Positions 7,950 through 64,000 of a stretch of DNA of 64,000 bases are shown here, piece by piece. Origin of the DNA: Cristatella mucedo (lineage: Eukaryota; Bryozoa; Phylactolaemata; Cristatellidae); the NCBI GenBank assembly GCA_009760855.2, contig WPIO01000032.1, positions 3,479,001-3,543,000 on the forward strand, written 5' to 3'. Both the position numbers and the translations under genes were made by a program. The notes under the pieces are model-generated. The model was not told the DNA's origin. It was given only the letters and a program-made list of their open reading frames with translations, and ran no database searches. How positions within the stretch are numbered: the stretch's first letter is position 1; every line of letters starts with the position of its first letter.

Positions 7950-9320
7950 GAAAAGAAACAGAACGGTTGCCGACATTAAGAGAAAACTCCGAGGAGTAAA
8001 GTTGAGTGCGTCTAAATGAATACACAATGGTGAGAGGACGTTGGTTCTTCGGAGTTAACATTCATGATAGCGGCGATAAAACAAAAACCAAGACGAGTCT
8101 TGTTCGCATATCTGGTTCATCCAGACGAGTCTTGTTCGCATATCTGGTACAGGTCTGCTTTCGATATGATCGAACCAATGAAATGGCATTTGAGCGTTTT
8201 TGGAATTAATAATGGATGGGGAATTGGTGGAATCTACTCAGGCCGATACTTTTTTTATAGTAAATAAGAAATACAATAGCCACATCGATGTCATCGAAAG
8301 TTTCGCTTAAACCATGGTCTTCGCCTTCGAGTGTGTGACATATTGTTCAAGAATGATGATGGATGATTTAAACCTGGATAGTGACGATATTGATGAAATG
8401 AACAATTTTGTAGCAGGTACGTACTTGGAAATGATCAGCGATGTGGCATTAGAAGGAGACATCGATAACCACGATATGCCCCCGAAATCACGAAAGCTCG
8501 TCGATTTTATTAGCAAGTCAACAACGGTTCGAAACAACGTCTTTAAATCCAAAGTAAAAGCTGAGTGCGAATGCGAGGTTGAACTGCATCTTGACGTGAA
8601 GATTCGATGGAACTCAGTGCCAGCAATGTTAGAGCCGTTATTAAAGACATAAGTCGCCATCTGCTAGACCTTAATCGAATTGAAGGGGCTGGAAATGATT
8701 AAGACATTTGTATTTCGACGCTCTCAAAACTCGTCTGAAGGCAATGGAACCTGTGAAACTTACTGTTGAGAATCGAAGTCGAGGCGAGGCGACGTTGGCT
8801 GACACAGATTTTAGAATTCTAACCTGAATAGTGACATAAGTACCAAGCTCACGGAAAATTTGATGAGTTACGTTGAAGAGCGATTGAACAAGTATATCAT
8901 GAAATTTGCAAAGTCTCAAAAATCCGCCAGTCGCCCGTCAAAAACTATACTACATTTCGCAGGAAATTTGGCGTGTCTACTTGGAATCAAGGATGTGGAA
9001 GTTGTCGCCGAACAGTTGTCAAACGATGCTGTAAATGTAAAATTGTCTTTAAAAAACTGAATTTGTTGCTTCAAAAAGATGGATCGTTAATTGCAGAGGG
9101 CATAACAGTTTCAAATAGCTCAGGTGCGACTTTAGGCTCATTGGAAACTCTGGCCAGCGAGCTGAAAATTGCCAGAAATTGTGTGACGCTATTTTATCAA
9201 TTAAATCGACATGAATGTACATTGAAAGAGTTTATTTCGGTCTGTACAAATTTCTGTATACAATTAAGATCGCGTCTCTCAGACAAGTCGCTCAATGCAC
9301 TTGGATTTTTGAAATATTAG
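7950..9320 (+). pseudogene. hAT-superfamily transposase relic
   Basis: hAT transposases are RNase H-like DDE enzymes that cut and paste DNA elements. Several frames here resemble one in order. At 8314-8652, SRKLVDFISKSTTVRNN is followed by LDVKIRWNSVPAMLEPLLK; LDVKxRWNS is a hallmark of hAT/ZBED-type proteins. At 9270-9318 the frame ends RSRLSDKSLNALGFLK, like the C-terminal dimerisation end of this family. Around 8000-8060, FFGVNIHDSGDK may match the upstream core. The frame is broken by a shift just after 8640 (the reading continues as DISRHLLDL one frame over) and by stops around 8680-8860. The usual SxxSAxxERxFS stretch was not seen. Terminal repeats were not identified. The protein is not functional as it stands. 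Confidence 0.7.
8091..8148. repeat. Tandem duplication inside the hAT relic, 32-bp period
   Basis: AGACGAGTCTTGTTCGCATA plus TCTGGT occurs at 8091 and again at 8123 without change. This internal duplication adds to the signs that the transposase is dead. Confidence 0.85.
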
Positions 9321-12950: not shown

Positions 12951-13456
12951 TAAGAAATGCCCCGAGATAAACAGGGAATCCAGATATTCTTGATTAAGTT
13001 GCAAAAATGCTATTAGTTCTTGACTCAGTTGGGAACCTCGTGCGTTTATGCGCCGGTTTTCCCTCCTTTAACAGGTATTCCCTCCTGAGCACGTGTCCCC
13101 CATCGATAGTAGCATTGGCAATAAGGTTATGCATGTGAGATACAAGGGTGAAAACCTATAAAAGTCATCTACAAGTTAGCTTGGTACTGTTGAATTACAG
13201 AAAAATATTCGTCTCAAAAATGCCTCTAGCATAATCAAGCATTGCAGCGTAAAATATTAAACACAGGTAACACTTTCATGCCGCTGCCTACAGACTATAC
13301 AAAGTGCGGCTATTCTAGGACGAATCGTCTCGAATAAGTTCATACTAAGCGCGAACCGAATCAAAGATACATCAAGTTATAAGTTTTGAAATCGTTTGTG
13401 GATCTTTTAGGAATAGTAGCAGGTGTAACTAACTACCAATTACTAATACTTTATGG

Positions 13457-13643
13457 TGGTGGTTCTCCTCCTGTGGGTCGCGACCCCTTTGAGGGTTGAA
13501 CGACCCTTTCACAGGGGTCGCCTAAGACCATTGTAAAACACTCATTTCCACATTTCGCACACAATAATTGTATGGTTAGGGGTCGCCACAACATGAGGAA
13601 CTGTAATAAAGGGTCGCGGAATTAGGAAGGTTGAGAACCACTG
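13457..13643 (+). mobile_element. SPIN-like non-autonomous hAT element, copy 1
   Basis: The 187-bp element ends in AGGTTGAGAACCACTG and starts with a worn partner (GGTTCTCCTCCTGTGGG). Inside it carries GGGTCGCGACCCCTTTGAGG, GGGGTCGCCTAAGACCAT, GCCACAACATGAGGAACTGT and AAAGGGTCGCGGAATTAGG in the same order as the SPIN family of hAT transposons. The flanks CTTTATGG and CTTTGTAA could be a worn 8-bp target duplication (5 of 8). It has no coding capacity and would need a transposase from elsewhere. Confidence 0.88.
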
Positions 13644-19624: not shown

Positions 19625-22430
19625 CTAATAATAATAATAACAATAATAATTCACTTGATAAAGCGCCCTCAGAGAACTCAATCTCTCTCAAGGCGCTTTA
19701 CATTTGCTGAAAAGGGAAATGCAATTGAATGGTGAGTAAAATCATGCTTGACAGACGAACAAAATGAATAACATGGTTAGGGGTGACATGCACAAGGTCA
19801 GCATGCAAATGTGGTTAGTGGCAGCATGCACAGTGTCAGTACGTTTAGGCACATGAAGGACGAATCACAGGGACCCACTAAATGCTGTCCTAAATAGGTG
19901 TGTTTTTAAATTCTTTTAAAATGTGGTCAGGTCAGGGGATGTTCTGACGCAGGTCGGAAGGGAGTTCCAGGCTTTAGCAGCATACGAACTAAATGCACGG
20001 TCTCCAAAGGATTTGAGGTTTGTACGAGGTATTTCTAGACTGTTGGATTCCGAAAAGCGGGTAGTACGATGCTTGGCCTGATGGGGGAGTACATCTGAGA
20101 GATAGGCTGGAGCCAAAGAATGAAGGGACCTAAAAGTGAGCGACTAAAACATTGAAGTCAATTCGTTGCTTGACTGGTAGCCAGTGCAGGTCGGCGAGAA
20201 GTGGAGTAATGTGGCAACTGCGACGCTCACGGCAGACAAGCCTAGCTGCGGAGTTTTGCACCAGCTGCAATCGCCTGATCGCACATGCCGGTAGGCCAGT
20301 AAGCAGTGAGTTGCAGAAGTCGAGACGGGATGTCACGAATGCATGGAACAACTTAGACGTAGTATCCTTATCTAAGCAAGCCCGAATTTGAGCAGTATTA
20401 TGAAGCTGAAAATAGGCAGATTTGACTGTGGAGCTGATATGGTCGTCCAACGAGAGGTCGCTTTGGAATAAGACATCTAGATTTCGAGCTGATTCAACTG
20501 GAGATATGCTGGCAGAGCCAATTTTGAGCGTCAGCCTTTCCAATTTGTGAATCACACTGGGTTTGCCCGTAGCTAGTAAGTTAGTTTTATCGTCATCTAG
20601 TTTTAGAAAATTTGCTGCCATCCATGTGCAGATGTCATCAATACATGCAGCAAGTGAGTTGAGAGAATTTGAGGTGCTCGGAGGCTGGAAGGGATCAAAG
20701 CAAAGGTACAACTGAGTGTCATCCACATAAAAGTGAAAGCCTAGATTGTGCTTGGCAATCCCATCAGCAAGACGGAGAGTATAAACCGTGAAAAGAACCG
20801 GACCTAGCACGGAGCCCTGAGGTACGCCATATTTCAGAGGTACCTCAGGTGATCGTTGTCCATTCACGTCAATACTCTGGAGTCTCCCACTGAGATAGGA
20901 CCTGAACTACTGCAGAGCAGTGCCAGTGATGCCTAGGCGAGATGAGAAGCGCTTTAGAAGAACTTTGTGATCGATGGTATCAAAAGCTGCCGAAAGATGG
21001 AGCAAAACAAGCAGAGACACTCTACCCATGCCTGCATTCCTAAGTAGGTCGTTGTATACCCGAAGCAATGCTGACTCTGTGGAGTGATTAGCTCTAAAGC
21101 AAGACTGGAACTTACTAGCAAGGTGTGAGATTTCGATATATGAGTTGAGCTGGTCCGCCACGACCCGTTCAAGTGTCTTTGATAGGAATGGTAGAAGGGA
21201 GACTGGTACGGTAGTTGCTTAAGTTCTCTTGGTCTAGTGTCGATTTCTTGAGAAGTGGCCTGACTACAGCTTTTTTGATAGGTGCTGGGACATGACCTGA
21301 GGCTAATGACATATTAATGATGTTAGTTATGCATTGCAGCAGCAGATCAATGCAACGTATGAGCAGGACAGTGGGAATAGGGTCCAGAGGATTTGTTGTC
21401 TTCTTTGACTGAGATACAAACTTCAGGACTAGATCACTAGTGACCTGCTTAAATGTAGACATTGAGGTGCAGCCAGGAATCGGGGAACAGCATTCTACTG
21501 GAGATGTTGTCATCGCAGGGATGGATTCCCCGATCTTGTCTATCTTCTGCACAAAGAATCGAGAGAAGCGATTGGCTAGATCATCACAAGGATCATCAGG
21601 TAAGGAGCTAAGCTGGGAGCGGTTGAGGAGATGGTTTATCGTCGACATCAGCATTTTTGGATTGTGCATCTGTGATTCAACAATGCTTCTATAGAAGCTA
21701 GATTTGGCCTTTGCTAGGATCGATTGGTACGACCTACAGTAGTCTTCATATGCCTGTCAATGGACAGTCAGTCCAGATCTTTTGTATGCTTTTTAAGCTT
21801 TCGCTTAGTAGACCTGGCTAGTTTAATGTCTGTGGTAAACCATACGTCGTCCGGGCGGGGGCGCACAGTGCGCTTTGTTAGAGGTGCAAATTCGTCGAGC
21901 GTGTCAGCTAGTGTCGTGTTGTAGCTATCTACCAATGATGACAGATCGGAGGGAGGACTGAGCAGCAGAGGTGAAGCAGATATTCTCGCACGGACAGCAT
22001 CGATGTCAAGGGTCTTGAGGTTTCGCGATTCACAGGTTATTGTAGAGGAGGAAGTGGGCACACACTGTAGATTGAATGAGATCTGCATGTGGTCAGATAA
22101 GCAGGATTTGGTGATAATTGGTGATGACAAAGTGCAGTTGTATGAGAAAATCTGGTCGAGTGTGTGACCCTTGATGTGAGTAGGGCCATGCACATGAGCC
22201 ACAAGAGACAATGAGTCAGTCAATGCACGAAATTCGGTGCTGAAAGCGTCAGATAAGTTATCAAAGTGAACGCTGAAATCACTCATAAAGAGGAAGGATC
22301 GATTTCTTGCACACAGAATCGAAATGAGATCGGAGAAATCTGAGATAAAGGAGGATTTGGTACCTGGTGGGCAATAAACTACTGCCACTATCGGTAGCTT
22401 GTTTTCGGATGAGACCAAGACTTTAGGGTT
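19625..22430 (-). mobile_element. L2-A LINE, 2.8 kb copy with endonuclease end and reverse transcriptase
   Basis: L2-type LINEs encode one large protein, an APE-like endonuclease followed by a reverse transcriptase, and insert by target-primed reverse transcription. Going 5' to 3' on the minus strand, 22418-21768 encodes the end of the endonuclease (LPIVAVVYCPPGTKSSF; CLSDHMQISF, the SDH box). 21669-21169 encodes the linker and the N-terminal fingers (NPLDPIPTVLL, AVVRPLLKK). 21161-20907 encodes AAFDTIDH. 20867-20130 encodes GVPQGSVLGPVLFTVY and the catalytic box FYVDDTQLY, then the thumb (SRLDFCNSLLTGLPA). The 3' UTR ends in the hairpin-like element and (ATT)n at 19625. At least three frameshifts or stops break the ORF. 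The copy is truncated inside the endonuclease at about 22430. Confidence 0.95.
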
Positions 22431-56400: not shown

Positions 56401-59400
56401 AATGAAGACTCGATTGGTATTTCCGTTGTCGTCAATTGCAGTAATCATTGGTGCTCATAACGCCGTTTCACTTTTGTTCCTCATAACGTCAATTCTGGTC
56501 ATCGATAGCTTTGTTGAAGGGCATCTGTGTGATCGATCGTTTTCTAGCTTTAGTCTTTTAGTATAAGACCACAGCAGTCATAGTGCCGGAACTTAATTAC
56601 CCATTAAACTGTCTGTCGTGAGCTTCGAAGTTGCCACATCACTTCACGCTGACCTGCACTGGCTCCCGGTTAGCAGTGCATCGACTTCAAGATTCTGTCA
56701 CTCACTTTTAGGTCCCTTAATTCTTTGGTGCCAGACTCCTTATCAGATAATAACCATAACAGTAATCATAATAACAATAATACATATTGATATAATATAT
56801 AATAATAGTTTTAATATAATAATAATAAATAATAAATTGATATAATAATAGCAATAATACATTTGATATCAGGAAACACAATCTCTTACTAGGCACTTTA
56901 CATATGCTGCAAAGGAAGCACGATCGAATAGTTAGTGGTAGCACGCTCAATGACAACAAGCATAGCATGGTTAGGGATGACATGCACATGGTTAGCATGC
57001 AAATAGGGTTAGTGGCAGCGTGCACAGTGTCGTCATCCGTAAGCACGAAAAGGACGAATCTCGTGGACCCACTAAATGCTGTGATAGATATATGCATTTC
57101 TAATTTCTTTTTAATGTAGTCAAGTCAGTGGATGTCGTGCCACCAGTCAGAAATGAGTTCCAGGCTTTGGGAGCATACGAACTATGGGTACGGTCTCCAA
57201 AGGATTTGAGGTTCATACGAGGTATAGGTTAACGATTAGATTCCGAAAAGTTAGTGGTACGATGTTTAGCCTGGTGGGGAGTAAATCTGATAGCTAAGCT
57301 GGAGCCAAAGAATGAAGACACCTAAAAGTGGGTGACAGAACCTTGACGTCAATGGGAGCTAGTGAAATCGAGACAGGTTGTCAGAAATACATGGGCCAAT
57401 TTAGATGTGCTATCCCTATCTAAAAAAGGCCTACTTTTAGCAATGTTATGTAGCTGAAAGTGGTCAGACTTGACTGTGGAGCTGACGTGGTCGTCTAATG
57501 AGAGGTCACTTTAGAATTTGACGCCTAGATGTCGTGCAGATTCAACAGGAGATATGCAGGCAGACCCGATTTTGAATGTTTTACCTTTCCAGTTTCTGAA
57601 TCACACTTGGTTTGCCCATAACTAGTGAATAAGTTGGTTTTATCATCATCTAATTTAAGAACGTTTGCTGTCATCCATGTCATCAATACATTCAGCTAGG
57701 GAGTTGGGAGAATTAAGACATGCTCGAGGGCTGGGATGGATCAAAGCAAAGGTACAACTGAGTGTTGCCTGCATTGAATTCAAAGCCTAGGTTGTGCATG
57801 GCAATCATATGGGCAAGAGGGAGAGTATAAAATCTGAAAAGAACGGGACCGTGCACATAGCCCTGACGTACCTCGTACTTCAATGGCTCCCGGATGATCT
57901 ATGTCCATTTACATCAATACTCTGGAGTCTCTCATTGAGATAGGACCTGAACCGTTGCAGTGCAGTGCCAGTGAGGCCCAGGTGAGATGAGATATGCTCG
58001 AAAAGCACTTGGTGATCGATAGTATCAAAAGCTGCCGAATGATCGAGCAAAACAAGCTGAGAGACTCTACCTAAGTCTGCATTCCTAAGTAGGTCGTTAT
58101 ACACCCAAAGCAAAGCTTTTGATTAGTGATTAGCTCTAAAACCAGACTGGAACTTACGAGTAAGTCTTGAAGTTTCAGTATACGAGTTCAGCTGCTCTGC
58201 CACGACTTGTTCCAGTGTTTTTGATAGGAAAGAGACAAGGGGGTGGGTGGAAATTGCTGAAGTTCTCTTAGTCTAGTGTTGCTTTCTTGAGAGGTGGTTT
58301 GACTACAGCCTTTTTAAAGATGCTACGACATGACGTGATGCTAATGACGTATTTATGATGTTATTTATGCATGGCAGCAGCAGATCGATGCATCGTTGAG
58401 GCAGGGCAGTGGGAATAGGGACTAGAGGGCTAGTTGTCTTCTTTGATTGGGATCTATGAGCTTCAGAACGAGGTCACTAGTGGCCTCTTTGAACGTAGAC
58501 ATTGAGGGGCTGCATGGAATTGAAGGACATGATTCCAGGGTGATTGCTGCCACTCTAGGGATGTACTCCCTGATTTTTGTCAATCTTGTTGACAAAGAAG
58601 TTAGAGAAACGATCGGCTAGATCAGCGGTTCTCAACCTGTGGGTCGCGACCCCTTTGCAGGGATCGCCTAAGACCATCGGAAAACATGCATTTCCACATT
58701 TTGCACACAATTTTATATTTAGGGGTTGCCACAACATGAACTGTATTAAAGGTTGAGCATTAGGAAGGTTGAGAACCACTGAACTAAATCATCACAAGGA
58801 TCACTGGGTAAGGAGCTAACCTGGGAGCAGTTAAGGAGACGTTTGATCGTAGATGTCAGCATATTTTGATTGTGCATCTCTGTATCAACACTGTTTTTAA
58901 ATGAGCTAGACTTCGCCTTTGCTATGATCGATTGGTACTATCTACAGTAGTCCTCGTATGTCTGTTGATGGACAATGAGTCCTGATCTTTTGTATGATTT
59001 TTCAACCTTGTGCTTAGTAGACCTAGCTATGTCTGCGGTAAACCATAGGCCATTTGGGCAAGAGCACACAGTGCACTTAGTCAGAGGTATAAACTCATTG
59101 AGTATGGCAGTTAGTGTCGTGCTGTAACAATTTACCAATGATGACAGGTCAGAAGGGGGATTGAGAAGCAGAGGCAAAGCAGATATTCTCGCACGGACAG
59201 CATCGATGTCAAGGGTCTTGAGGTTTTGCGATTCACAGGTGATTTTAGATTAGGATGAGATCACACAATGTAGACTGAACGAGATCTGCTTGTGGTCAGA
59301 TAAGCAGAATTTGGTAGTAGTTGGTGATGAAAGCATGCAGTTGCATGAGAAAATTTGGTCGAGTGGGTGACCCTTGTTAGTAGTGCGGTAAACATGTGCC

Positions 59401-61931
59401 ACAAAAGACACTGAGTTAGTCAGTGCACGAAATTTTGTGCTGAAGACATCAGATAAGTTATCAAAATGAATTTTGAAATCACCCATAACGAGGAAGGATC
59501 GATTTCTTGCACACAAAATTGAAATGAGATCAGAGAAATATGAGATAAAGGAGGACTTAGTATCTGTGGGCGATTGACTACTGCCACAATCGGTAGCTTG
59601 TTCTCGAGTGAACTCAAAACAGCAGATTCGAAAGACTGCTTCGAGGGGGACTTTGAACTGCTTCAAATTGAAGGTCGAGTATGTAACAATAGTGACTCCC
59701 TCCAGTTTTGATTGATCTAGGGGTGTGAAAGAAGGAGAAGCATGTCGGGTGCATCGTTAGTGATCGAACAGTTTACCGACTTTGGCCAAATTTCGGTTAA
59801 GGCAGGCAGGTTGAGGCCTTTTTCTTAAATAAGGTCTAATAGTGGTTTATTGCACATTGAACGAGGATTCCAAAGTCACACGCTAAGCTGGGCCGCTGGG
59901 GTTATAGCTGGCCTGATGATCACTAGGTTAGAGCAATTCACAGCAACACTTGAGGGAGAACGAGTTGAGCGGTTCGAGACAAAACTAGGAATACCTAACG
60001 AGGAGGTACGCAACTCGCAGTTCCCGCCAAACGAGTGGATTCTCAGCTCCCGGCCCCACTTCGGCTCCAATGTACGTTTCTTTTGTTAAGGTATAATTCA
60101 CGGATCTTAGCAGCAGCAATAATATCTAGGAATGCATTTAAACTGCGATAACGAAGCGATAGTAGGTATGCACATCATAACTAATATGCAGGTTACTAGC
60201 CGCCGGTATATCTAACAGTGATGCAGACATAGCAGCCTGAAGCGGTAAGTGTTTAGACGTCCATGGGCACGTAATTTCTTACCCACTACTCTTCCACCAG
60301 GCTAAGCATCATTACACCTACTTTTCTAAATCTAATCGTTTAGCTATACCTCGTACGAACCCCTAATCCTTTGAAGACCGTGCCTTCAGTTCCTATGCTC
60401 CCAGGGCCTGGAACTCACTTCTGTCTGGCGTCACGACATTCCCTGGCTTTCCCTGACATTAAAAAAAATGCTAGCTGATTTAACAGCCTCTTTTTCTATA
60501 GCGTCGAAAGAGCCTTTACGGCTATCACCACCGCTTGCAGTGGCGATAAAGGATCGCCCACCGCAGGATTCAAACCCACGACCTCAAGGCCGAGGTCGTG
60601 AAAAGCAACCACCTTACCTAGTGAGCCACGTCTCACCATCCCTACCGACATCTAAAATGAAGCTAAAATCACGTCAATTTATCGCAGCATTTACTGAGTC
60701 CGTGTGATTCATCCCTCCTGTGGTTATGTGTGCTAACACTGCATTCTGCCACTAACCATATTTGCATACTTACCCTGTTCATGTCACCTCTAACCACGTT
60801 GTGCCTGTTGACATTGAGCATGCTACCACTAACCATTGGACCATGGTTTTTTGCATCATATGTAAAGTGCCTAGAAAGAGATTAAGTTCTCAGAGGGTGC
60901 TAAATAAAAGTATTATTATTATTAACAAATCTGTATTTACTCTTTCCATCGTGCACCTGGCTTCAGTTCATAAGGCTTCAGCCAGATTTTTGGTGAGCTC
61001 ACTGACTAAAATAAACCATTATTACTAATACTACCCGATGGCAATATAGCCCCTATTTGCTTTATATGCTGTTGCCTTATCTTTTCTTTCTTTTTGTCAC
61101 CTGTTGCTCCGACCCCAGAACTTCAGATTGTGCCTGTAAAGGTCACCTCATTTTTGACAGCCGTGTGAATATTTTTCTGAGCAGTTGTTGCGATCGATAA
61201 TTGGCATGGTGTAAGCAGGTACTCTGCCCATCACATACTGCCGCTAGACCCAAGCTGGTTTTATTACCATTCAAAAATATTACTTGAGTAGGTGTGCTCG
61301 AGTAATATTTTTATAGAGAGTATGCCTGACTCTGCTGAGAACTACGTTTTATATCACTTCCAACCAATCTGCACTGCCCCTCTTTAAGCAGCATATCGGC
61401 TTCAGCTGCACTCACATTTGTATACCTGCATTGCCTTGCCTTGGCGTACATATATTAAATACTTCCTAACTGGCCTCCCGCCGCACCAGCTGATCGTCTG
61501 ACTCTGGTGGTTTGGTTGCACCTCTAACCAACTTCAAAATTTCTTGGAAACTGTGCCTTGAATTACTATGCTCCCTAAGCCTGGAACTCACTTTCCGACC
61601 GACATGTCATCGGATTTGAAGAAATTATGAAAGAAGCTAAAAACCTACCCGTTCCTCAAAGCCTTTGCTATGTTTGAGTGCATTGTCCTTTTCCATTGCC
61701 TTCTGAAACTGTGCATGTTATGACCAACCGATTGACATGCTTATTTCTTTGGCATAGTCCCACCGATTGACATGCTTATTTTTTAGTATATGTGAAGTGT
61801 TTAGAAAGACATTTTCTCTGCTTGGGGTGTTTTGCAATGTTTTTGTCACCTAATGTGCAATGAATGATAGTCAGCTATGAGTCTGAACTCATGATTAGGG
61901 TTATCAGGTGCCAGCGCAGCCCACACACGCA

Positions 61932-62008
<77 letters not shown>

Positions 62009-62488
62009 ATGTACTTTTAGGCCAAGACCCAGAAGTTAAAGCCACGGTATTAATCTCAGACGAATAGTCGGGCTTACCATCTCTGCATGTGCTGCTGCTC
62101 GTGTGCGTTTGTACAAGCAAGCGTGCTCGTTTGTGTACTTACATCTGTCTGCCGAATTGGTCTGATCGTATCCATTGGTTGCATATCTACTGCGCAGGTG
62201 AACTCATTCCTGCAGATGCTTCAGGCCGACCTAGAGCGTGGGGGCGTGGAAGGTCGCCTGGACTCGATCGCCGGCCAGTGCATGTATTTCGGCCTGTCGT
62301 TCAGCCGCGTGGGCTGTGACTTCCGAGGCCTGCTCGTTCCAATCCTCAGTGGGGCTTCGAGCAGGGCATTTAAGTGTGCTGTAATCGCTGCAGCCACCGG
62401 CTTTGAGGAGGCCATGCAGTCGTTTGTGTTGCTCAGCCTGCCAACCACCATGCCGAGTCTGTATCAGTCCTGCACTAGCAGCCCCGAG
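48259..62488 (+). CDS. COG8: Conserved oligomeric Golgi complex subunit 8 (partial, 3' exons outside window)
   Basis: COG8 (Dor1 family) belongs to lobe B of the COG tether, which captures vesicles recycling Golgi enzymes at the cytosolic face of the Golgi. Nine exons were found: 48259-48319, 50728-50799, 51360-51484, 52789-52886, 54866-55037, 55403-55564, 55807-55858, 56148-56317 and 62198-62488. All have GT/AG borders and compatible phases, 401 codons in total; human COG8 has about 612. The start [16 protein letters not shown] has G at -3 and +4. Landmarks are [104 protein letters not shown] and [14 protein letters not shown]. The remaining third of the protein must lie beyond 64000. The introns hold many LINEs and SINEs; the last complete one is 5.9 kb. 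Confidence 0.97.
49340..49488. repeat. Imperfect (GCT)n-type triplet repeat
   Basis: Dominated by GCT, TCT and GTT triplets for about 150 bp, which gives alanine-rich frames on the minus strand. Low complexity rather than a gene. Confidence 0.85.
50281..50321. repeat. Direct repeat, 22-bp period
   Basis: ATGATACCTATCTGATA occurs at 50281-50297 and 50303-50319. The core CTATCTGATA also forms the arms of the inverted repeat at 53003-53039 in COG8 intron 4. Confidence 0.8.
50980..51160 (+). mobile_element. tRNA-derived SINE-1, nearly complete
   Basis: A-box region TGGCACACTAGGTAAGGCGG, B box GGGTTCGAATCCTG, then a body with GCGATCCTTTATAGC, GTGATAGCCATAAAGGCTC and an end AATCAGCTAGTATTTTTTTG. 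The same order is seen at 55885-56035 and, reversed, at 60472-60650. It sits in COG8 intron 2. Confidence 0.85.
51702..51721. repeat. Short (GA)n run
   Basis: About ten GA units in COG8 intron 3. Confidence 0.9.
51722..52788 (+). other. COG8 intron 3, no recognised element
   Basis: Unique-looking sequence up to the acceptor GTTCCAG at 52782-52788. No exon or repeat of the window was recognised. Confidence 0.5.
53003..53039. repeat. Perfect inverted repeat, 15-bp arms
   Basis: CAGCTATCTGATAGC (53003-53017) and GCTATCAGATAGCTG (53025-53039) are exact reverse complements separated by seven bases. It lies 117 bp after the exon 4 donor of COG8 and could fold as a hairpin in the transcript. Confidence 0.9.
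53146..53401. repeat. CT/CTGT-rich pyrimidine tract
   Basis: About 255 bp of CT, CTGT and CCCT repeats in the sense strand of COG8 intron 4. The arginine/glutamate-rich minus-strand frames and leucine/serine-rich plus frames over it are artefacts. Confidence 0.95.
53402..54131 (+). other. COG8 intron 4, middle part
   Basis: Open in several short frames, none recognisable. Nothing else noted. Confidence 0.45.
54132..54664 (+). mobile_element. L2-A LINE 3' end
   Basis: [20 protein letters not shown] and the rest of the ORF2 C-terminus, the 3' UTR, the hairpin-like AAAGAGATTGAGTTCTCCGA and an ATT-rich tail. Sense insertion in COG8 intron 4, about 200 bp before exon 5. Confidence 0.93.
55885..56035 (+). 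mobile_element. tRNA-derived SINE-1
   Basis: B box GGGTTCGAGTCCTG, body GGCGATAGCCTTAAGGCTC and end AAACCAGCTGACATTTTTCTG match the SINE-1 copy at 50980 in order. It lies in COG8 intron 7, between two exons only 290 bp apart. Confidence 0.8.
56618..56755 (+). mobile_element. L2-A ORF2 fragment
   Basis: GTTGCCACATCACTTCACGC, GACCTGCACTGGCTCCCGGT and CTCACTTTTAGGTCCCTTAA are L2-A ORF2 sequence in sense. It directly abuts the 3' end of the antisense copy that follows. Confidence 0.75.
56755..60105 (-). mobile_element. Near full-length L2-A LINE, decayed
   Basis: On the minus strand, the endonuclease begins at about 59870 with a worn [16 protein letters not shown] (the WNxRS start of APE-type domains) and [12 protein letters not shown]. 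It continues with [27 protein letters not shown] and [11 protein letters not shown]. The reverse transcriptase follows with [20 protein letters not shown] at 58050. The catalytic box reads FNAGNTQLY, so both aspartates are lost. The 3' UTR and hairpin-like end reach an AAT-rich tail at 56755-56850. About 200 bp upstream of the endonuclease (59876-60105) may be 5' UTR. A SPIN-like element interrupts it at 58623-58781. Confidence 0.88.
58623..58781 (+). mobile_element. SPIN-like non-autonomous hAT element, copy 2
   Basis: Inverted ends CAGCGGTTCTCAACCT and AGGTTGAGAACCACTG (15 of 16 complementary) enclose 127 bp with GTGGGTCGCGACCCCTTT, ATCGCCTAAGACCATCGG and GGGGTTGCCACAACATGA. It shares CATTTCCACATTTTGCACAC with copy 1 and lacks about 17 bp that copy 1 has. 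The flanks GGCTAGAT and AACTAAAT are an 8-bp target duplication (5 of 8). The intact L2-A at 21574-21581 has the single uninterrupted GGCTAGAT. Confidence 0.93.
60288..60918 (+). mobile_element. L2-A LINE 3' end, split by a SINE
   Basis: The ORF2 C-terminus (CCTCGTACGAACCCCTAATC, TGCTCCCAGGGCCTGGAACT) is followed by a SINE at 60472-60650. The L2-A 3' UTR then resumes (GCAGCATTTACTGAGTCCGT) and runs to the hairpin-like end and an ATT tail at 60918. Confidence 0.85.
60472..60650 (-). mobile_element. tRNA-derived SINE-1, complete, nested in L2-A
   Basis: Minus-strand reading gives TGGCTCACTAGGTAAGGTGG (A-box region), GGGTTTGAATCCTG (B box), GGCGATCCTTTATCGCC, GTGATAGCCGTAAAGGCTC and AATCAGCTAGCATTTTTTTT. 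It is the most complete copy of the family and defines its T-rich 3' end. Confidence 0.88.
61500..61845 (+). mobile_element. L2-like LINE 3' fragment
   Basis: CACCTCTAACCAACTTCAAA, CTCCCTAAGCCTGGAACTCA and a worn hairpin-like end (AGAAAGACATTTTCTCTG). It shares details with the fragment at 3640-3945 rather than with young L2-A copies. ATTGACATGCTTATTT is duplicated inside it at 61730 and 61774. Confidence 0.6.
61937..62004. repeat. Compound (AT)n(GA)n microsatellite
   Basis: About 38 bp of AT repeats passing into about 30 bp of GA repeats, 190 bp before COG8 exon 9. Confidence 0.97.
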
Positions 62489-63204: not shown

Positions 63205-64000
63205 ATCACTCCACTTACAACAAGCTTCACACACTCGATCAAACAAACATCCTACAAATGTAAGGTATCATCCTCTATTATTACTAAATTCTGCTCATCT
63301 GATCACATACGGATTTCATCCAGTCTACAGGGTGTGGCCTTCTCCACTTCCAAAATCATTTATGAATCGCTTGACCTCAAGACCCTTGACATCGATGCTG
63401 TTCGAGCAAAAATATCTTCGTCCCTGTTGCTTAATTCCGCTGCCGACCTGTCATCATTGGTAGAATGCTACAACACGAAACTTGCTGACGCTTAACTAGT
63501 TAACTTACCCCTATGACTAAGCGCACTGTGAGCCCTCGCTCAGATGGCCTTTGGTTTACTGCAAAAATTAAACTAGCTAGATCTACTATTCGAAAGCTTG
63601 AGAAAGCATACACAGGATCAAGACTGACTGTCCATCGTCAGGCATACATAGACTACTGTAGATCATACTAATTGATCTTAGCAAAGGCCATGTCTACCTT
63701 CTATAAAAACGTTGTTGATTGACAGACACACCATCTAAAAATGCTGATGTCCACGATCAGCCATTTCCTTAACCGCTCCCAGATTAGCTCTTTACCTAGG
63801 GATCCTTATAATGATCTAACTGATTGCTTCTGTAACCTCTTTGTCAGCAAAATAGACAAGATCAGATAGTCCATCCCTAACGTAACAGCATATCCACTGG
63901 ACTACTGTCCCCCAATAACAACCACACAGTTCTCATCTCCCTCAATTCCATGCAGCACCTTAATGTTCACCTTAAAATTCAAGGTGGCCACAGATTGATC
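63205..64000 (+). mobile_element. L2-A LINE, runs off the window
   Basis: Sense copy starting in the endonuclease end (SSIITKFCSSDHIRISSSLQ, the SDH box), then [19 protein letters not shown] and SSLVECYNTKLADA, equal to 22200-21890 of the L2-A copy on the other strand. Stops at 63494 and later break the frame. The reverse transcriptase would lie beyond 64000. Confidence 0.88.

Follow-up and report, generated by a model that had tools for sequence, protein, structure and literature searches.

A probable non-autonomous SPIN transposon nested in a retrotransposon copy of Cristatella mucedo, with a broken long relative elsewhere in the genome

The DNA analysed, referred to here as the window, is a 64,000-nucleotide stretch of the genome of Cristatella mucedo. 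Two copies of a single MITE family are present in the window, i.e. copy A and copy B (Table 1). The terminal inverted repeats of copy B are imperfect, as can be read from its first 20 bases (CAGCGGTTCTCAACCTGTGG) and the reverse complement of its end (CAGTGGTTCTCAACCTTCCT). Repeats of the type CAGCGGTTCTCAACCT, which we take to be the terminal inverted repeats of SPIN, were found both in copy B and in the 187-bp consensus of the family that is described below. A single occurrence of the 5' 24-mer of copy B and two of its 3' 22-mer were found in the window, each with 0 mismatches, and none was obtained in 100 shuffles with ≤3 mismatches allowed. A scan of the window against Rfam at gathering thresholds returned 0 matches, and the observed/expected ratio of CpG for the window was 0.81. 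Separately, an open stretch at 62192–62383 matched the Pfam model Dor1 (COG8; E 9.8e-13) and is probably an exon of a host gene.

Table 1. Positions of the two MITE copies, their target-site duplications and the insertion-site relatives within the window.
Feature	Position	Strand	Basis
Copy A left target-site duplication, CTTTATGG	13449..13456	+	
Copy A, 187 bp, full length, same MITE family as copy B	13457..13643	+	
Copy A right target-site duplication, CTTTGTAA	13644..13651	+	
Empty-site relative GGCTAGATCATCACAAGG, in the paralogous copy at 19.6–22.4 kb	21574..21591	+	
Retrotransposon copy interrupted by copy B	56821..59606	-	window self-alignments
Copy B left target-site duplication, GGCTAGAT (TA at positions 4–5)	58615..58622	+	
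Copy B, 159-bp non-autonomous element of SPIN type (MITE)	58623..58781	+	
Copy B right target-site duplication, AACTAAAT	58782..58789	+	
Second empty-site relative, AGTTAGATCATTATAAGG	63804..63821	-	

Copy B interrupts a retrotransposon copy, as an earlier note on this DNA had claimed, which assigned that copy to the putative clade L2-A; the extent tabulated for the interrupted copy is the span of the self-alignment only and may join several pieces. The member of this retrotransposon family at 19.6–22.4 kb matched the Pfam model RVT_1 (E 8.3e-10). When the flanks of copy B were joined, with one copy of the duplication removed, the resulting sequence could be aligned through the insertion point with two relatives in the window that lack the insertion, namely to 21527–21641 at 81.9% (116 columns, one gap) and to 63859–63754 at 81.1% (106 columns, gap-free). 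The uninterrupted sequence that the note had placed at 21574 was found there as described. The 8-bp target duplication that it had read around the element is likewise present in decayed form, with 5 of 8 positions identical and the other three differing by G/A transitions. As copy B is nested inside the retrotransposon copy, it must be the younger of the two, and the order of events proposed in the note is upheld.

Copy A retains the full length but begins with the bases TGGT, unlike SPIN-type ends, and its duplication has decayed to agreement at 5 of 8 positions. Copies A and B have 139 of 159 aligned bases in common (K2P 0.138). The host genome (572,011,866 bases in 688 contigs) was searched with both copies. 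Copy B yielded 2,071 first-look candidates and copy A 2,217, with all of the 40 candidates scored in each search being matches. An alignment was constructed for 38 copies, comprising eight loci from the copy B search and 30 from the copy A search, two of the 38 being the window's own. The majority consensus was 187 bp in length with SPIN-like ends, and individual copies differed from it by 3.2–9.1%; these copies were the best matches and therefore lean young. Copy A differed from the consensus at 15 of 187 bases (8.0%) and copy B at 9 of 159 aligned bases (5.7%), with 28 columns deleted in the latter.

Target preference was examined from the sequences flanking the aligned copies. The flanking 8-mers were equal at at least six bases for 27 of the 38 copies. 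Two of these 27 (L002 and L003) have identical flanks and may represent a single insertion. Where the flanks of these 27 copies agreed, position 4 was T in 21/21 cases and position 5 was A in 24/24. The other 11 copies, including both window copies, had flanks equal at ≤5 of 8 bases, some of them being cut or shifted in the alignment. A target of nnnTAnnn with an 8-bp duplication is of the Buster/SPIN type and is a feature of membership of the Buster group of hAT elements. In the text available from two studies of this group, the Buster target consensus is given as nnnTAnnn (PMC3517528, PMC3499496) and SPIN is assigned to the Buster family (PMC3499496).

Copy density was sampled in three sets of sequences. 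Two copies occur in the 64-kb window, 0 in 81,936 bp from 25 loci selected on unrelated grounds, and none besides the focal ones in the sequence surrounding 44 SPIN loci (139,029 bp including the focal copies, with two of the 44 lying in the window). One row flagged in locus L071 as an extra copy was rejected, as it represented that copy's own 3' part. The data are compatible with a copy number of some thousands, which is an order of magnitude with a wide error. That these elements stem from foreign animal DNA contaminating the assembly is hardly credible. Nothing was found in favour of this, the scored copies were distributed over >30 contigs, many of megabase length, and copy B is located within a retrotransposon whose paralogues also occur in the window.

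The earlier note had also stated that the match to SPIN extends into interior blocks, and had regarded identity confined to the terminal repeats as grounds for rejecting the SPIN assignment. A 35-base pattern was assembled from two parts, the first taken from the window copies and the second from presumed vertebrate SPIN interior sequence that the window copies lack. This pattern was present at 32 places in the host genome with 0–3 mismatches as compared to 0 for the control. All six of the pattern loci that were read are bounded at either side by SPIN end regions, and they measured 308–682 bp between the chosen bounds. Longer copies with the same ends therefore exist in the genome, and the resemblance to SPIN extends beyond the terminal repeats, as is also evident from the match to mouse DNA described below. 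Positions 1–93 and 107–187 of the short-family profile were matched in the long copies, and positions 94–106 alone were unmatched, indicating that the short family arose from the long form through internal deletion.

A 199-bp piece of the 5' interior of the long form gave 17 genome matches (17/17 candidates scored). Two of these 17 places and seven more were read, those on contigs C133 and C676 were read in part and six were left out. Among the seven further places was a copy at C111:23756954–23760241, which spans 3,288 bp between SPIN ends and is flanked by a duplication agreeing at 7 of 8 positions (GTTTAAGC/GATTAAGC). Autonomous SPIN elements are about 3 kb in size, and the C111 copy is an element of about this length with the same ends as the non-autonomous copies, as expected of SPIN. 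Its coding part is broken, with open stretches in three frames. The transposase within it is broken and appears hAT-like.

The relationships of this coding part were examined using a 120-aa open piece from the C111 copy. Twelve matches were obtained among 150 scored of 183 candidates, consisting of C111 itself, C133, C676 (two rows), C658 (short) and seven distant sequences with 25–30% identity. The matches on C133 and C676 contain stops. In a two-sequence comparison, the 120-aa piece matched a 482-aa protein of another hAT in the genome with an E value of 4e-9; this protein scored above the cut-off for Dimer_Tnp_hAT and below the cut-off for DUF4371. No hAT model of Pfam was matched by any of the transposase pieces tried, the 120-aa piece included, and a PDB search with the transposase detected no relative, only a chance match. 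Weak Pfam matches of the transposase pieces to unrelated families fell below the curated cut-offs and were disregarded.

Other hAT elements of the genome were surveyed with the Pfam models PF05699, PF18658 and PF14291, producing 138, 145 and 46 matches, respectively, among 150 candidates scored for each. Twenty of these loci were read (8, 6 and 6), and in the stretches fetched the match to SPIN ends was never better than chance (best E 0.8). For the first family the stretches stop short of the 5' end, and some stretches are masked, such that the exclusion of SPIN ends is partial. A clear best match to an unrelated hAT family, which had been put forward as an argument against the SPIN reading, was not encountered in these comparisons.

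Eight loci (L048–L055) belong to a hAT family with pairwise identities of 94.5–99.7%, mostly ≥98%, over about 2–2.2 kb, and many copies have open frames of up to about 635–642 aa; the family looks recently active, and the stretches fetched for it, which stop short of its 5' end, had no SPIN-end match. Another hAT, represented by L066 and L067 (contigs C77 and C244), has open frames of 497 and 482 aa, and the ends of L066 are CAGGGGTGTCCAACCTTTT and ACGTGTTGGACACCCCTG. Within the window, two ORFs at 8311–9320 resemble decayed hAT transposase by eye, with no Pfam match at E 0.05.

The existence in this genome of other hATs with their own ends raises the alternative that the elements represent a different Buster-family hAT, native to the lineage, whose ends look SPIN-like since Buster ends are alike. 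Short motifs are indeed common to Buster-type ends. Mouse presumably carries SPIN. A search of the literature for printed sequences identified only a table of mouse primers and a mouse intron. Alignment of the mouse intron (PMC8376875) to the consensus gave 67 identical bases of 80 aligned, all in the 3' part, with a score of 90 as compared to a maximum of 27 in 1,000 shuffles. A mouse Kcnq1ot1 primer (PMC6221546) was identical at 20/20 bases to copy B, 19/20 to the consensus and 17/20 to copy A, and its partner matched the other end of the consensus at 15/20 bases and the window copies at 12–14/20. The available text of these two papers does not call the mouse sequences SPIN (PMC8376875, PMC6221546). 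A match that spans 80 bases of the 3' part, and 32 genomic occurrences against none in the control for a pattern containing presumed vertebrate interior, go beyond short terminal motifs and render a native Buster element improbable. Searches of viral_contigs and genome_contigs with SPIN end and subterminal patterns found 0 loci, i.e. no outside copy in these collections.

Copy B is accordingly best interpreted as a decayed non-autonomous SPIN transposon (hAT, Buster), an internal-deletion MITE probably moved in trans. We assign a probability of approximately 0.88 to this interpretation, in which the name SPIN is partly presumptive. The ends, duplications, empty sites, short and long copy families, their deletion relationship and one long broken copy are observed directly, and would be explained by the following history. 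A full-length SPIN of about 3.3 kb would once have been present in the genome and been moved by its own hAT transposase. An internal deletion would have left 93 bp of its 5' end and 81 bp of its 3' end, bridged by a 13-bp filler, as the 187-bp MITE. The SPIN transposase would then have excised this MITE in trans and reinserted it into nnnTAnnn targets, each time with an 8-bp duplication. Some thousands of copies would have resulted, one of which would have entered the pre-existing retrotransposon copy in the window. The source of transposase would subsequently have decayed. Mobilisation of the MITE in trans by this particular transposase is probable, as is the present inertness of the SPIN family in this genome. 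Such a mechanism is ordinary.

Among transposons, SPIN is a standard example of horizontal movement from one animal phylum to another. Presumed arrival by horizontal transfer into this host is the natural reading, because the similarity of long non-coding stretches to the vertebrate family is much greater than would be expected had these been inherited vertically from before the separation of the phyla. The long copies on C111, C133 and C676 are 82–85% identical to one another at the DNA level and are old, which would accord with the same SPIN elements having been inherited vertically from an old animal ancestor. Such inheritance is nevertheless very unlikely, as copies within the genome appear to be closer to one another than that age permits and as unconstrained non-coding DNA is not this similar between phyla after >500 My. 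More speculatively, the elements may derive from an independent and old SPIN invasion of an invertebrate lineage beyond the snails and the bug, which left a full-length autonomous fossil; such invertebrates could conceivably have served as a reservoir that seeded the tetrapods, although we regard this scenario as doubtful.

Comparisons were made with known systems. In the text available, SPIN (SPACE INVADERS) is reported in vertebrates (tetrapods) and in Rhodnius prolixus (PMC11614815). The Cristatella elements are like these SPIN elements, as far as the accessible descriptions extend, in their ends, in the nnnTAnnn target with 8-bp duplication, in the presumed 5' interior beyond the extent of the short copies and in a 3' part as found in mouse DNA. 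They are unlike them in that the short form retains just 93 bp of the 5' end and 81 bp of the 3' end, separated by a 13-bp filler that is absent from the genome's long copies. In the genome of Biomphalaria glabrata, a hAT present in about 1,000 copies has significant identity to SPIN, and the DNA transposons of this genome are described, in the part of the paper available, as having no intact transposases (PMC5440852). The likeness to this snail element, as a SPIN-related hAT in an invertebrate genome, is drawn from that description. The similarity in target (nnnTAnnn) to the Buster-family hATs TcBuster and Mar MITE is likewise drawn from published descriptions (PMC3499496, PMC3517528).

SPIN has also been reported in Lymnaea. 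As SPIN or SPIN-like elements had already been reported from snails and a bug, the Cristatella element adds a further host to a known family and is not a new kind of element. Some thousands of copies in another invertebrate, comprising two non-autonomous forms along with a broken full-length autonomous copy, would make the timing and direction of transfers testable with internal sequence, beyond the ends of MITEs.

Additional observations were made on the mitochondrial DNA of the host. The mitochondrial contig C688 (L015, L016 and L047) is 21,008 bp in length and carries a COX1 with 11 in-frame TGA codons. The same frame contains 11 AGA/AGG codons, which by eye are best read as serine at places such as NNM-S-FW and KVF-S-W; the mitochondrial code is not that of vertebrates, because these in-frame AGA/AGG codons would be stops. 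The gene order on one strand, read by eye, is cox3-atp6-cox1-nad3-(duplicated stretch)-nad1-nad6-cob-nad4L-nad4-nad5, with cox2 (by motif) and the large rRNA on the other strand. This order is unusual and is unlike the vermetid orders in the portion of the literature available. A nad1-to-nad5 block occurs in molluscs and their kin, and would suggest a lophotrochozoan host. The contig contains a 2,119-bp stretch in tandem and a 1,795-bp inverted copy of this stretch, all 100% identical, which may be an assembly error. Matches to COX1 were also detected on C166, C83, C549 and C299, and are probably nuclear pieces of mitochondrial DNA.
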